Source of the DNA: Planctomycetota bacterium
GTDB lineage: Bacteria > Planctomycetota > UBA1135 > UBA2386
Reading direction: 5' to 3'
Length of the DNA: 64,000 bases
Assembly: GCA_016872675.1 (NCBI GenBank)
Contig: VGZG01000006.1
Span: 1-64,000 of the forward strand
Below are positions 30,858-37,168 of the stretch, one piece after another. A program made the translations under genes and the position numbers. Numbering within the stretch: position 1 is the first letter of the stretch; every line of letters begins with the position of its first letter. Under the pieces are notes generated by a model that worked only from the letters and a program-made list of their open reading frames with translations, was not told the origin of the DNA and searched no databases.

Positions 30858-33800
30858 ATGAACCGCTCCTCGCTCTTCACCCTCGGCGTCGCCGCGGGCC
30901 TCTCGCTGATCGCTCGTTCCGTCGCGCAGGCCGATGGCACGGGCCCGATCGTTCCCGGCAATCCGCAGGTCGCCCTGCAGTACGGCACGTTCGACCCCAA
31001 GGTCGGCACACTGCCGATCCCGGCCGTTCTCCGGGCCGGCGCCGACACCCGCCTGTGGATCGTGCAGTTCCACGGCGCGCCGACCGACGACGACCGCGCC
31101 GCACTGAAGGCGCTCGGCGTCGCCGTGCACGGCTACCTGCCGCACACCTGCCATCTCGTGCGCATGGACGGCGCCGCCGTCCGCGCCGTCGGCGCGCTGC
31201 CCGCGGTGCGCTGGGTCGGCGCGTACGAGCCCGCCTACCGGCTGGAGACCGCGCTGCTCGAAGCGCTCGCCAACGGCGTGCAGCTCGGCAAAGCCCGCTA
31301 CAACCTCGTCGTCGCCGACAAGCGCACGCAGAAGGGCGCGCTGGCGGCGAAGATCGAGGCCTTCGGTGGCACGGTCGTCGACCGCCAGGAGATGGGCCTG
31401 CTGCTGATCGCCGAGCTCGACGGCGCGCAACTCGCCGCCGCGGCCCGCTGCGACGAGGTGCTGTGGATCGATCGCTGGACCGAGCCCGGCGCGGACATGA
31501 ACAACGCCCGCATCCAGGGCGGCGCCAACGCCATCGAGACCGCGGCCGGCTACACGGGCATCGGCGTGCGCGGCCACGTGTACGAAGGCGTCGAGCCGAC
31601 GCATCCGGACTTCACCACCGCGCTGGTCAACGTGCGCAGCGGCGGCACGCAGCAGCGCCACGGCCACTGCACCGCCGGCATCGTGTTCGGCAACGGCACG
31701 AGCAACGCCAGCGCGCGCGGCATGGCCCCGGACGCGGTCGGCTTCTACACCAACTACACGACGGTGACGGCCGGCTTCTCGCGCAACGCCGTCATCAACG
31801 AGGTCGTCAACACGCACAACTGCATGTTCACGACCGCGTCGTGGGGCGCCGGCGTGACCACCGCGTACACCGCCGACTCGGCCGACGCCGACGACATCGT
31901 GTTCGACCACCGCATCCCGTGGACGAACAGCATGTCGAACCAGGGCAACCAGTTCGCGCGCCCCCAGGCCTGGGCCAAGAACGTCATCTCGATCGGCGCC
32001 GTGCAGCACTTCAACAACAGCAACCCGGCCGACGACTCGTGGGCCGCAGGCTCGGGCTCGATCGGCCCGGCGGCCGACGGCCGCATGAAGCCGGACCTGT
32101 GCGCCTACTACGACAGCGTGTGGACGTCGGACCTGAGCGTCGGCCTCGCCAACAACGACCCGACGGCCCCGGGCACGACCGGCGGCTACAACAACGTCGC
32201 GGATCCGGCCGGCCAGTCGACGACGAACTTCGGCGGCACGTCGGCGGCGACGCCGATCGTCGCGGGCCACAACGCCCTCGCGATCCAGATGTACACGGAC
32301 CACCTGTTCAGCAACGCGCCGCGCGTGGTCGGCGGCAGCCGCTTCGCGAACCGCCCGTACGCGCAGACGCTGAAGGCGCTGATGATCACGGGCGCCGACC
32401 AGTACACGATGACCGCGGCGGACAACCGCCGCGAGCACGTCGGCTGGGGCTTCCCCAACCTCAACACGCTGCTGACGCGCAAGGACCGCTTCACGATCGT
32501 CGCCGAGGACGCGCCGATCACGCAGGGCGGCACGCACAGCTACCAGGTCAACGTGCTCGCCGGCGAGACCTCGCTGAAGGTCTGCATGACGTACCTCGAT
32601 CCGGCCGGCAATCCCGCCGCCGCGCTCGACCGCGTCAACGACCTGACGCTGCGCGTGATCGCGCCCGACGGCACGTCGTACTGGGGCAACGTCGGCCTCA
32701 AGGGCGCGGCGCAGACGCGCTTCAGCGCCGTCGGCGGCGCCGCGGACACGATTGACACCGTCGAGTGCGTGATGCTGCAAAACCCGCTGGCCGGCACGTG
32801 GACCGTCGAGGTCACCGCGCCGACCGTGACGCAGGACGCGCACATCGCGACCGCGGCGACCGACGCGACCTACGCGCTGGTCGTCAACGGCGGCACGCGC
32901 CTCTACGGCTCGGGCTGCGCCCGCTACATCCCCGACGTCAGCCCGACGGCCGCCACCGGCAACTACTGGCCCTTCGGCGGCAATTCGAAGTCGGAGCTCA
33001 CCACGTTCTTCACCGGCGGCAACTTCGGCGCGTCGGGCGGCGCGGTCTACTTCAACGTGACCGCCGCTGCGAGCGTCTGGATCGGCGGCCTCGATCTCAA
33101 CACCACGGCGCCGGCGGGCCAGGAGCTGCGCCTCGACGTCTTCCGCACCAACCTCGGCGTGTCGCACGTCGGCAACGAGACCAACCCGGCCTCGTGGCTG
33201 CCGCTGACCGCTGGCAAGGGCGTGTCCGCCGGCCCGGACGCGCCGAGCCGCATCAACTTCGCCGAACCGTTCTTCCTGCCAGTCGGCACGTACGGCCTCG
33301 CGATCGACGCGACCAACTTCGCGCACGGCTACACCAACGGCGACGGCAGCAACCAGAACCATGCGCTGGGCGCGCTGTCGCTGGCCGCCGGTTCGGCCAG
33401 CAACGCCGGCTTCGCCGGCTTTGTCTTCTCGCCGCGCGTCGCCAACGTCACGCTGCTGCACCGCTACGACAACGGGCTCGGCACGAACATGCGCTGGCAG
33501 ACGATCGTCCGCCGCGCCGAGCTCGGCGCCCTCGGCGTGATCCGCAGCCTCGCCTTCGCGCCGGAGGTCGACGGCCGCCACTGGAACAGCAACCTGATGG
33601 TGCGCATGAGCCACGTCGCCAGCGGATACGCGCTGTCGCCCAACTTCGCCGCCAACATGCCGGGGCCGATCACGACGCTGAGCAGCAACAACTACAGCTT
33701 CGACATGACGCAGGACCAGTGGACCGAGATCGGCCTGCAGACGCCGTTTCTCTACAACGGCGTCGACGATGTCGTCGTCGAGGTGATCGCCCAGGGCAAC

Positions 33801-34328
33801 TGGCAGACGGTCGACGGCCAATTCGCCCGCTCCAACGAGCCGCGCGTCTACGCCATCAACTGGACCGGCGCCGCGCCGGCGATGGCAACCGGCGTTGACA
33901 ACTTGTCGGTGCGCCTGCGCCTGGGCTTTGGCTGCAGCACGGTGAACGAGCACGGCGCCAGCTGCGGCTCGCTGGAGGCGATGCACTTCGGCAACGGCAA
34001 CCGCGGCGGGACGTTCTTCTTCTATACGACCGGCGCGCCGGCGAGCAGCATCGCGGTGCTGGCGCTCGGCCTGACCAACGGCCCGCCCCTGCCGCTGTCG
34101 CTGACGCCCTTCGGCTGGACGAACTGCGTCGCCTACCAGGACGCGACCACGACGTCGACCGTCGCGACCAGCGCGGTCGGCGTCGGCACCTTCGCGCTGG
34201 CGATCCCCAACAACCCGGCGCTCGACGGCACGACGGTCTTCGGCCAGTGGCTGACGCTGGACGCCACCGAGCCGGGCCTGCTGACCTTCTCGGGGCAGAC
34301 CCGCGTGATGATCGGCACCGCGCCCTGA
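30858..34328 (+). CDS. Large secreted subtilisin-family (S8) protein with altered Asp segment
   Basis: 1156 residues. A signal peptide (MNRSSLFTLGVAAGLSLIAR) is followed by a propeptide-like region (60-210: LWIVQFHGAPTDDDRAALKA) and the S8 domain (about 215-560). His268 is in RHGHCTAGIVFGNG, the oxyanion Asn is in NSMSNQGNQ, and Ser462 is in FGGTSAATPIVAGHNA. Where subtilases have V-x-D-x-G before THPDF, this protein reads HVYEGVEPTHPDF, so the catalytic Asp is replaced by Tyr/Glu243. Residues 560-680 resemble a P-domain-like sandwich (VCMTYLDPAGNPA). Two more strand-rich regions and the C-terminal module (FGCSTVNEHGASCG ... PNNPALDGTTVFGQW) follow. It could be a protease with Glu in the triad or a non-catalytic surface protein. 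Confidence 0.85.
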   Translation: MNRSSLFTLGVAAGLSLIARSVAQADGTGPIVPGNPQVALQYGTFDPKVGTLPIPAVLRAGADTRLWIVQFHGAPTDDDRAALKALGVAVHGYLPHTCHLVRMDGAAVRAVGALPAVRWVGAYEPAYRLETALLEALANGVQLGKARYNLVVADKRTQKGALAAKIEAFGGTVVDRQEMGLLLIAELDGAQLAAAARCDEVLWIDRWTEPGADMNNARIQGGANAIETAAGYTGIGVRGHVYEGVEPTHPDFTTALVNVRSGGTQQRHGHCTAGIVFGNGTSNASARGMAPDAVGFYTNYTTVTAGFSRNAVINEVVNTHNCMFTTASWGAGVTTAYTADSADADDIVFDHRIPWTNSMSNQGNQFARPQAWAKNVISIGAVQHFNNSNPADDSWAAGSGSIGPAADGRMKPDLCAYYDSVWTSDLSVGLANNDPTAPGTTGGYNNVADPAGQSTTNFGGTSAATPIVAGHNALAIQMYTDHLFSNAPRVVGGSRFANRPYAQTLKALMITGADQYTMTAADNRREHVGWGFPNLNTLLTRKDRFTIVAEDAPITQGGTHSYQVNVLAGETSLKVCMTYLDPAGNPAAALDRVNDLTLRVIAPDGTSYWGNVGLKGAAQTRFSAVGGAADTIDTVECVMLQNPLAGTWTVEVTAPTVTQDAHIATAATDATYALVVNGGTRLYGSGCARYIPDVSPTAATGNYWPFGGNSKSELTTFFTGGNFGASGGAVYFNVTAAASVWIGGLDLNTTAPAGQELRLDVFRTNLGVSHVGNETNPASWLPLTAGKGVSAGPDAPSRINFAEPFFLPVGTYGLAIDATNFAHGYTNGDGSNQNHALGALSLAAGSASNAGFAGFVFSPRVANVTLLHRYDNGLGTNMRWQTIVRRAELGALGVIRSLAFAPEVDGRHWNSNLMVRMSHVASGYALSPNFAANMPGPITTLSSNNYSFDMTQDQWTEIGLQTPFLYNGVDDVVVEVIAQGNWQTVDGQFARSNEPRVYAINWTGAAPAMATGVDNLSVRLRLGFGCSTVNEHGASCGSLEAMHFGNGNRGGTFFFYTTGAPASSIAVLALGLTNGPPLPLSLTPFGWTNCVAYQDATTTSTVATSAVGVGTFALAIPNNPALDGTTVFGQWLTLDATEPGLLTFSGQTRVMIGTAP

Positions 34329-34337: not shown

Positions 34338-34772
34338 TTCGCTCTTTCTTTCGCCGCGGCGGCGATCGGCAGCGGAGGGCTGCCGGTCGTCGCCGCGGCG
34401 GACTTTGCGGCGAGCGCGTTGGCGACGAACTACGCCGCGGACGACGAGCGCGCGGCGCCGGGGCGCGACGCTGACATGGCTGACTGCCGACAAGTCGGCG
34501 TCGCCGCTCGCACTGGCCAACCGCGTGACGTCGCAGCTGTCGGCGTACAGACGGGCAGCGGCGGAACCCGGCCACGTCCCCGGCGTCAGGACCGGCGGCG
34601 ACACCGTTGGAGCGAGGTCGAGCCGGAACCCGCCGCCGCGCCGCCCGTGGGCGCTGCGTTCGGGCGATAGCACAACGCAGGGCATCCCATGATAAGGCGC
34701 GCCGGTCGCCGCTTTCGCTGCTCGCCGTCCGTATGCTCTGTCGCGCGCCAATTCCGGCGCCCACGGAGCCCT
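34338..34772. other. 435-bp region without a supported gene
   Basis: The plus-strand frame at 34335-34670 starts with a hydrophobic stretch but soon becomes Arg/Pro-rich and lacks normal codon periodicity, so I do not call it. The stretch lies between a terminator and the thioredoxin-like selenoprotein gene and must hold that gene's promoter. A GGAG sequence at 34765-34768 is a plausible ribosome-binding site for the ATG at 34773. Confidence 0.4.
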
Positions 34773-35636
34773 ATGAACCGTCCCATCGTCGCCCTCGCCG
34801 CGCTATGCACCGCGGCCTGGGCCCTAGCCCAGGATCCTGCGCCGACCGCGGCCCCGAAGCGCCTGAGCGTCGTCGCCGACGCGCTCGCCGCGGCGAAGCT
34901 CGAGAACAAGCGTGTGCTGGTCCACTGGCTCGGCGACGGCGAAGCCGGCGCCGCGATCGGCAAGGCGCTCAAGCGCGCACCGCTGAGCCGACAGTTGCTT
35001 TACGAGTTCATGCAGGCGCCGCTGGCCTCGGCCGACGACGCCAAGGCGTTCGGTCTCGGCGACGCGCCCGCACTCGCCGTGCTCGACGCCGATGGCAAGC
35101 AGCTGGCCGCGTTCGCCGCCACGGACCTCGCGCCGTTCGACGCCGGCAAGCTGGCCGAGCAGTTGAAGGCGCATCACGCCGCGCCGCTCGACGCGCAGGC
35201 GTTGCTCGACGCTGCGTTCGCTGCGGCCAAGAAGGACGGCAAGCGCGTGTTCGTTCACTTCGACGCGCCGTGGTGAGGCTGGTGCAAAGTGCTCGAGGAG
35301 TTCCTCGGGCGACCTGAAGTGCACAAGCGCATGCAGCTCGACTACGTCGTGCTCGAGCTCGACACCGACCGCATGACCCACGGCAAGGCGATCTACGACC
35401 GCATGAAGGCGGGTCGCAACGGCGGCCTGCCGTGGCTGATCGTTGTCGACAACGCCGGCAAGGAGCTGATCACCGGCATCGGACCCAAGGGCAACATCGG
35501 CGCGCCAGTGCAACCCGAGGAGTGCGAGCACTTCGTCGCCATGCTGCGCGCGACGAAGCAGCGTCTGACCGACGACGACGTGGCGACGATCGCCGCCGAG
35601 CTCGAAGCGCACGCCAAGTCAAAGCGCCGCAAGTGA
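34773..35636 (+). CDS. Candidate selenoprotein: secreted two-domain thioredoxin-like protein with UGWC active site
   Basis: The frame from ATG 34773 meets a TGA at 35274-35276 and continues in the same phase to 35636. Read through, it gives 287 residues with the TGA as residue 168. The signal peptide is MNRPIVALAALCTAAWALAQ. Residues 25-125 form a degenerate thioredoxin-like domain lacking the Cys pair (VLVHWLGDGEAG). Residues 140-287 form a second one: KRVFVHFDAPW-U-GWCKVLEEFL, with cis-Pro in GGLPWLIVVDNAGKEL. The TGA falls exactly on the first Cys of a CGWC motif, the usual place for selenocysteine, and a SECIS-like hairpin follows at 35291. The alternative is a TGC-to-TGA mutation or sequencing error. 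Its stop overlaps the next start (GTGA). Confidence 0.83.
35291..35310 (+). promoter_or_regulatory. Bacterial SECIS-like hairpin downstream of the UGA codon
   Basis: GCTCGAGG (35291-35298) pairs with CCTCGGGC (35303-35310), eight pairs including one G-U, around the loop AGUU. An outer stem GTGCA/TGCAC (35282-35286 with 35320-35324) can enclose it. The loop begins 22 bases after the UGA and has G among its first two bases. This fits the published general description of bacterial SECIS elements: a hairpin inside the coding region, with the loop some 16-37 bases downstream and a G at the start of the loop. Confidence 0.62.
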
Positions 35637-37168
35637 CGCCGGCCACGCGCGCCGTCGCCGCCGCCGTCGCCCTCTGCTGCTGGCTCGGCCGCGCGATGTG
35701 GCCCGGCGAAATCGACGCCGGCAACCTCGGCCTTGCGCTCGGCGGCTTCGCGCCGGTGGCGCACCACCCGCAGCCGCCGGGCTACCTGTTCCACGTCGTG
35801 CTCGGCAAGGTCTTCGCTGCCTTGGTCGGCGACGCCCACCGCGGGCTCGCGCTGCAGGCGGCGGTCACCGCCGGTCTCGGCGCGCTCGCCATCGCGGCCT
35901 TGGCGCGGCGGTGCCTTGGCGGCGGACTCGCGCCGTGGCTCGCGCTTGCAATCGGCTGCACGCCGGTCGTGCTCTACATGGGCGGCGACGCGCTCAGTGG
36001 CATCGACGCGCTCGGGCTCGGCGCGCTCGCCACGCTGCTGCTCGTGCGCGCGGCCGGCGGTGAAGGGCGCGCGTTCGCAGCGGCGTCGCTGCTGCTCGGC
36101 CTCGCCGGCGGCTTCCGTCCCGACGTGACGATCCTGCTCGCCGTCGCGTGGCTCGTCGCCGCGCGGCCCTACGGCTGGGCCCAGCGCGCCGGCGGCGCCG
36201 TACTGCTGCTCGTCGGCGCGCTGACGTGGCTCTTGTTGACGGTCATCGCGTGCGGCGGCGTCGGACCGTTGGTCGCCGCGTGCGGCTACGTGCAGCCGAT
36301 CCTCGACCGCGAGGCGCTGTGGCGCGACGGCACGCTCGAACGCCAGGCCGCGACCTTGTGGCGCATCGGCTGGGCCGTGCTGCTCGGCGGCGGGCCGGCG
36401 CTGGCGTTTGGCCTGTGCCTGTGGCCGCTGCGGCGCGCCGCGGTGGCGCAGGCCCTGCCGGTCGCGACGCGCGCCGTGCTGCACGCCGCCGCGTGGCCGC
36501 CGCTGCTGCTGCTGGCGCTGACGTTCTGCCACAAGAAGGCGTACCTCTTCGCCGCGCTGCCAGCGCTCGCCGTGCTCGCCGCCGCGTCGTGGCGCTCGTT
36601 GCTGCGCGAACGCGCGGTCGCCGCGCTGCACGCCGTCGGCGCCGCGGCGGGCCTGCTGGCGTGGCTGCTGCTGCCAGCGGCTACCTCGCGGCAAGCCGAC
36701 GCCGACGGCTTCGGCCGCGCGCACGAAGCGCTGCCGTGGCTGGATCGCCTGTCATGGCAGCCGCTCGAGCACACGCTCGCGTCGCGCCGCGCGATGGACG
36801 CGCGCTACGACGAACTCGCTCACCAGATCCGGCGCGCACACGAGCAAGGCCAGCGCGTCGCCGTCGTCAGCCACCCGCCCGACCCGATCGACCTGCGGCC
36901 ACTCGGCCTGATGGCGCCCGCCATCACCGTCGTCGAGCTCGACGGCACACCCGGCGCGTGGCGCCGCGTCCGTATTGGCAAGGGCGCGAGCGAACACGTG
37001 ATCGCGCCCGACGGTGACGGCCGCGTCGCCGTCGACGCCGACGTCGTCATCGCCTGCGTCGGCTGGGACAAGGCCTGGGCGGCGCAGCTACAGCAGGCCG
37101 GCGCGCAGTTGGTGATGGCGGCGCCGACGGTGGTGTTCGCGATCGCGAACGGGCCCGTGCGCTGGTGA
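35633..37168 (+). CDS. GT-C type membrane glycosyltransferase-like protein
   Basis: 511 residues from a GTG overlapping the selenoprotein stop, so probably translated together with it. The first membrane helix is followed by a short acidic loop GEIDAGNLGLALGGFAPVAHHPQPPGYLFHV. The acidic residues followed by a PPGY motif are typical of GT-C enzymes, which move sugars from lipid carriers on the outer face of the membrane. About ten helices follow (for example RAGGAVLLLVGALTWLLLTV). The C-terminal 130 residues are soluble and include VAVVSHPPDPIDLRPLGL and VDADVVIACVGWDKAWAAQL. The overall architecture is like the GT39-like protein at 22983, but there is no close sequence match. The sugar and acceptor are unknown. 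Confidence 0.72.
   Translation: MTPATRAVAAAVALCCWLGRAMWPGEIDAGNLGLALGGFAPVAHHPQPPGYLFHVVLGKVFAALVGDAHRGLALQAAVTAGLGALAIAALARRCLGGGLAPWLALAIGCTPVVLYMGGDALSGIDALGLGALATLLLVRAAGGEGRAFAAASLLLGLAGGFRPDVTILLAVAWLVAARPYGWAQRAGGAVLLLVGALTWLLLTVIACGGVGPLVAACGYVQPILDREALWRDGTLERQAATLWRIGWAVLLGGGPALAFGLCLWPLRRAAVAQALPVATRAVLHAAAWPPLLLLALTFCHKKAYLFAALPALAVLAAASWRSLLRERAVAALHAVGAAAGLLAWLLLPAATSRQADADGFGRAHEALPWLDRLSWQPLEHTLASRRAMDARYDELAHQIRRAHEQGQRVAVVSHPPDPIDLRPLGLMAPAITVVELDGTPGAWRRVRIGKGASEHVIAPDGDGRVAVDADVVIACVGWDKAWAAQLQQAGAQLVMAAPTVVFAIANGPVRW

Follow-up and report, generated by a model that had tools for sequence, protein, structure and literature searches.

An in-frame UGA at the active site of a planctomycete tandem thioredoxin-like protein, a predicted exported selenoprotein

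Selenocysteine in DsbD-gamma-like domains

A selenocysteine (Sec)-containing protein named 'Trx-like 2 (thiol disulfide interchange protein)', with a cd02953/DsbD-gamma-like domain and a UxxC motif, is part of the GOS selenoproteome (PMC2398784), and a UxxC 'Thiol:disulfide interchange protein' of family PF13098 has likewise been catalogued (PMC13188914). The planctomycete gene described here resembles Sec Trx-like 2 in having Sec for the first Cys of CxxC in a DsbD-gamma-like domain, the two being likened by motif, fold and description. They differ in that the Sec domain here follows a degenerate one in a tandem pair, or in some relatives forms the end of a TlpA fusion, cd02953 being compared by its description. 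On our reading, to which we give a probability of about 0.95 with the mechanism proposed below included, the gene encodes an exported two-domain thioredoxin-like selenoprotein. The in-frame UGA is almost certainly decoded as Sec, because the Sec machinery of the genome, the pairing of Sec and Cys homologues, the SECIS-like hairpin and the selection on the sequence after the TGA all agree. The apparent broken gene would then encode a redox protein of a known kind in a new form.

Among solved structures, the DsbD gamma domain and DsbH are the best matches, and the two halves of the profile each hit DsbD or DsbH chains. An identity with either was rejected on scores far below the NCBIfam cut-offs (27.7 bits against 330 for DsbD, NF001419; 20.8 against 190 for DsbH, NF043050); furthermore, the protein has no DsbD_TM match and no transmembrane part, and contains Sec instead of Cys. 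TsoB (NF045694), a rhodanese/DsbD fusion-like selenoprotein, is matched weakly by the Sec domain in its DsbD-like part, as it is by 29 of 30 family members, but the score of 23.5 bits against a cut-off of 805 excludes an identity; the rhodanese domain is lacking here and the TsoB motif in the catalogue is UxxxxU. The Trx7/PDZ (seleno)protein NF041199 is also a Thioredoxin_7 selenoprotein, catalogued with CxxU and a PDZ domain. It was rejected as well, the motif here being UxxC and no profile match being found at E 0.001, with weak matches in 5 of 30 relatives. Overall, no NCBIfam model reaches its cut-off for the protein, for the 30-member family or for the TlpA(UGPC)-Trx-Trx7(UGWC) fusions of related genomes. 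The Cys-containing tandem Thioredoxin_7 proteins of Planctomycetota have the same two domains and fall into the same family alignment, but each of their domains usually has CGWC, and a SECIS-like hairpin is usually lacking.

In the parts of the 2026 catalogue tables that could be consulted, neither the two-domain form nor the double-Sec TlpA-Trx-Trx7 fusions occur. Neither the 2026 review nor the deep-Sep paper mentions planctomycetes, and a literature search with partial journal coverage returned no text naming the family or planctomycete Sec thioredoxins. Sec-containing DsbD-gamma-like domains are thus known, while the tandem with an inactive first domain and the double-Sec TlpA fusions are absent from the tables consulted.

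The gene and its in-frame UGA

The window, that is the whole stretch of 64,000 nucleotides analysed, contains the following features.

34765..34768, + strand: possible ribosome-binding site GGAG, 4 nt 5' of the ATG at 34773 (sequence)
34773..35636, + strand: predicted selenoprotein gene, complete, 287 residues with Sec168 (reading frame, full-length homologues)
34773..34832, + strand: predicted signal peptide, MNRPIVALAALCTAAWALAQ (read from the sequence; disorder in the model)
34860..35177, + strand: first thioredoxin-fold domain, degenerate (AlphaFold2 pLDDT >90; alignment to Cys homologues)
35181..35564, + strand: second thioredoxin-fold domain, Pfam Thioredoxin_7 PF13899, residues 141-225 (profile, model, structures)
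35274..35276, + strand: UGA codon predicted to be read as selenocysteine, Sec168 of the UGWC motif (frame, homologue alignment)
35283..35285, + strand: codon of Cys171, the putative resolving Cys of UGWC (no variation among the 30 aligned family sequences)
35290..35311, + strand: SECIS-like hairpin UGCUCGAGG-AGUU-CCUCGGGCG, 9 bp with a 4-nt loop (folding, conservation, covariation)
35430..35432, + strand: codon of the cis-proline Pro220, GGLPW of the thioredoxin fold (invariant in the family alignment)
35633..37168, + strand: next gene, 511-residue polytopic membrane protein, whose GTG start overlaps the terminal TGA (ORF)

The TGA at 35274-35276 parts the upstream ORF, for which the ATG at 34773 is the best start, from a downstream open stretch ending at the final stop TGA (35634-35636). 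The first-pass annotation had described two frames in the same phase split at this codon, with the stop where a CxxC site has its first Cys, and both the coordinates and the reading were confirmed exactly. Translation with TGA as U yields 287 residues containing HFDAPWUGWCKVLEEFLG, in which the joined DAPW-U-GWC places residue 168 at the first Cys of the CGWC thioredoxin motif. The cis-Pro loop reported after the stop is also present (GGLPWLIV, with Pro220), and the downstream half indeed starts poorly: its earliest start codon is the GTG at 35289, already past the active site. The 3' end of the gene is plausible because the possible GTG start of the next gene at 35633 gives a 4-nt overlap with the terminal TGA. 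Antisense ORFs are common in the G+C-rich window, and long open frames alone are weak evidence. The frame is regarded as more than chance because homologues covering the full length, at 36-45% identity, have TGA or Cys aligned exactly with this codon. Standard annotation splits the gene at the TGA, by which the catalytic half is lost.

Domain architecture and fold

AlphaFold2, run on the family alignment, returns two thioredoxin domains with a mean pLDDT of 90.7 and with residues 1-22 disordered; together with the N-terminal sequence this suggests that the protein is exported. The first domain has no cysteines; at its CxxC position it reads LGDGEAG, where the Cys homologues read ANWCGWC. Since both domains carry CGWC or a similar site in Cys relatives, L031 among them, loss of the site is the simplest reading of the first domain here. 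A BLAST comparison of this domain with the rest of the protein gives a weak internal repeat (E 0.012), so it is the model and the Cys relatives that identify it as a degenerate thioredoxin.

The second domain matches PF13899 with 45.8 bits against a gathering cut-off of 27, and its nearest solved structures are 3fk8 (a Xylella disulfide isomerase), the DsbD C-terminal domain and DsbH. Comparison of the whole structure with the PDB gave single-domain or loose multi-domain PDI matches only. Trp167, Trp170 and cis-Pro220, which we take to be the rest of a normal thioredoxin active site, are invariant in the family alignment. As read from the sequence, Sec168-Gly-Trp-Cys171 is the only CxxC-type redox centre of the protein. 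The earlier description of a two-domain exported thioredoxin with a degenerate first and a Sec-containing second domain is thereby borne out by the model and the Cys relatives, with export predicted, and the family it had left without a name can now be described as tandem DsbD-gamma/Thioredoxin_7 proteins of Planctomycetota with Sec and Cys members.

Partial termination at Sec codons is generally known, and the first domain folds separately in the model. Both points would fit a UGA that is mostly a true stop, with a first domain ending at residue 167 as the main product and the Sec-containing full-length protein made only when selenium suffices. However, such a product would be a domain without an active site, and the cut, lying inside the second domain, would leave an incomplete fold, whereas the Cys homologues are one continuous protein. 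We consider predominant termination very improbable; it would in any case modify the reading as Sec and not replace it.

Sec and Cys relatives

Homologous loci, 150 in number, were gathered from relative genomes and from named genomes, mostly titled Planctomycetota, Phycisphaerae, Rhodopirellula and similar. At the position of Sec168, all but 2 of these carry either TGA (60 loci) or Cys (88 loci), the remaining 2 being without the residue. After removal of near-copies, the non-redundant set (n=114, mostly Planctomycetota) has 45 TGA and 69 Cys genes at this column; kinship among the sequences inflates these and all other relative counts and p-values. The error made by standard annotation at this locus would recur in dozens of planctomycete genomes. 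Between closely related TGA genes, most substitutions 3' of the TGA are at third codon positions (in one example 5, 1 and 20 at the first, second and third positions), which points to purifying selection on the sequence after the TGA.

Genomes with a tRNA-Sec hold 39 of 40 TGA loci and 24 of 28 Cys loci, counted over the loci from relative genomes. The difference is not significant (Fisher p 0.15) because most genomes with the Cys form also carry tRNA-Sec.

The SECIS-like hairpin

The hairpin at 35290-35311 begins 13 nt after the TGA, has its loop 22 nt after the UGA with G as the second loop nucleotide, and has an energy of -14.0 kcal/mol. Published limits for bacterial SECIS elements (bSECIS) are a loop of 3-9 nt, a stem of 4-16 bp, a G in the first two loop positions, a loop 16-37 nt after the UGA and an energy of at most -7.5 kcal/mol (PMC13188914), and the hairpin lies within every one of them. 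A hairpin inside these limits is found in 43 of 45 TGA genes versus 6 of 69 Cys genes. Compared with shuffled sequences, the fold energy of the single hairpin in the window is not exceptional (z -1.28), so the case for a SECIS element rests on conservation.

This conservation takes several forms. AGTT occurs 25-28 nt after the T of the TGA in 38 of 42 distinct TGA sequences, with a stem of 6-9 bp around it. At five of the eight core pairs, one or more sequences have compensatory replacements of both partners (as in L034, with GUUCCAGG/CCUGGAAC), and covariation as high as that observed was reached in 0 of 500 shuffles. Codon choice inside the hairpin is also strongly biased compared with the rest of the same genes: Gly is GGG in 26 of 27 cases (16% elsewhere), two Leu codons are CTC in 37/41 and 39/42 (36%), and Glu is GAG in 81/82 (63%). 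This synonymous constraint is confined to the hairpin in TGA genes. Furthermore, the spaced pattern TGA + TGY + GAGTTC has a single match in the whole genome, at this locus, and its reversed control has none.

The two TGA genes without a hairpin inside the limits are L059 and L075. In L059 the hairpin after the second TGA fails the energy limit. L075 has its TGA at UGWC and no convincing bSECIS; its element may be atypical, or the gene may be in decay.

If the TGA were a mutated Cys codon, or stood for TGC or TGT through a fault of sequencing or assembly, the gene would be a pseudogene or an artefact, and a single base does separate TGA from the Cys codons in what is a draft assembly of 182 contigs. 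Against this, the 45 non-redundant genes have TGA at the identical position across many genera and families with no other inactivation, they carry a hairpin that the Cys genes lack, and their sequence 3' of the TGA is under purifying selection; such a mutation or error is scarcely credible.

Sec machinery of the genome

A search of the genome recovered all four components of the Sec machinery above curated cut-offs: tRNA-Sec (72.7 bits against an Rfam gathering score of 47, with anticodon tca by ARAGORN), SelA (446.8 against 267.9), SelB (343.3 against 242.25) and SelD (350.6 against 125). The genes lie on contigs other than that of the window, in whose 64 kb an Rfam search gave no match and a tRNA search found none. 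On contig C131, selA (L019 32-1252) and selD (L019 1270-2298) are side by side, selD directly downstream, and selA ends with UGA, which works as a terminator there. Over the own genome and its relatives, tRNA-Sec was detected in 174 of 199 genomes. SelD is itself of the Sec type, with an in-frame TGA at L019 1300 (SGSGUAAK), the known Sec position of this protein.

Although any read-through would yield the same open frame, a genome-wide reassignment of UGA to Cys or Trp, or near-cognate suppression with no selenium involved, has next to nothing to recommend it, as UGA terminates both selA and the present gene (where the next start overlaps it), the tRNA-Sec is a true one by ARAGORN and Rfam, and the hairpin, pointless under reassignment, goes with the TGA. 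The reading of the UGA as Sec, proposed in the first-pass annotation, is instead supported by the machinery, the TGA/Cys homologues and the conserved hairpin.

Proposed mechanism

From these features we infer Sec insertion, export and a direction of catalysis, together with a possible reductant and a type of substrate. SelB and tRNA-Sec would decode the UGA at 35274-35276, steered by the stem-loop just downstream. The first thioredoxin domain, having no site, would probably be a scaffold or docking surface, and the DsbD-gamma-like second domain would bear the Sec168-Gly-Trp-Cys171 centre. In the cell envelope, the selenolate of Sec168 would attack a substrate disulfide, and Cys171 would resolve the mixed selenosulfide. 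Electrons to reduce the oxidised enzyme again might come from the genome's one DsbD/CcdA-type membrane protein (a DsbD_TM match of 82.6 bits). Because the protein is predicted to be exported, its most likely role is that of an envelope disulfide or selenosulfide reductase.

Double-Sec relatives and history of the Sec site

Longer versions of the gene, seen in one related family and in a few further genomes, have an additional TlpA/ResA-like domain at the upstream end, in which a second in-frame TGA (FWGTWUGPC) is found with its own hairpin-forming sequence. Double-TGA genes occur in 13 genomes of the relatives set, or at 21 loci including repeats from a second collection. Most encode TlpA, a degenerate thioredoxin and Trx7, so that in most members a catalytically dead thioredoxin domain stands between two Sec sites. 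The two architectures are as follows.

TlpA(UGPC)-degenerate Trx-Trx7(UxWC), two TGA, each with a hairpin-forming sequence: L023, L024, L027, L034, L035, L036, L038, L045, L056, L058
TlpA(UGPC) fused directly to Trx7 (U[GP]WC), two TGA: L069, L071, L080

L069 comes from the window's own genus. The AlphaFold2 model of the three-domain double-Sec form has a mean pLDDT of 89.0. The fusions hint that the planctomycete cell envelope has a reductant pathway based on selenium. It is possible, although on balance we doubt it, that the window gene is a short relative of a planctomycete two-Sec lineage (TlpA UGPC, Trx7 UGWC), in which the Sec sites could relay electrons along a single polypeptide in the envelope with the dead middle domain holding them, the relay being cut here to a scaffold and one Sec. 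Among variants, L082 (PWQDKC) and L086 (PFSGWS) have lost the C-terminal site to Gln and Ser, respectively, and keep the TGA of the TlpA domain; tRNA-Sec was looked for in the incomplete genome of L082 and not found. L059 has UGWC in both tandem thioredoxin domains.

A quick tree of the Sec domain, with half of its inner branches poorly supported, implies at least six changes between TGA and Cys, two of them forced by well-supported branches. The TGA genes with other hairpins (L059, L075, L077, L091) all fall among Cys genes, and in L077 and L091 the different hairpin passes the bSECIS limits. This placement and the different hairpins fit separate later gains of Sec. On this tree, Sec seems to have been gained or lost repeatedly, in some cases with the hairpin placed elsewhere, and the coexistence of many Sec and Cys members, with a tightly conserved SECIS, therefore offers a good natural test of the gain and loss of Sec and SECIS.

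Gene neighbourhood

In the ORFs flanking 22 loci, conserved partners were not found outside close relatives, and no conserved neighbour indicates a substrate. The 511-residue protein encoded at 35633-37168, whose start overlaps the end of the selenoprotein gene, has no match in Pfam. Upstream on the same strand, the window encodes a large secreted subtilase-like protein (Peptidase_S8, 30858-34328).
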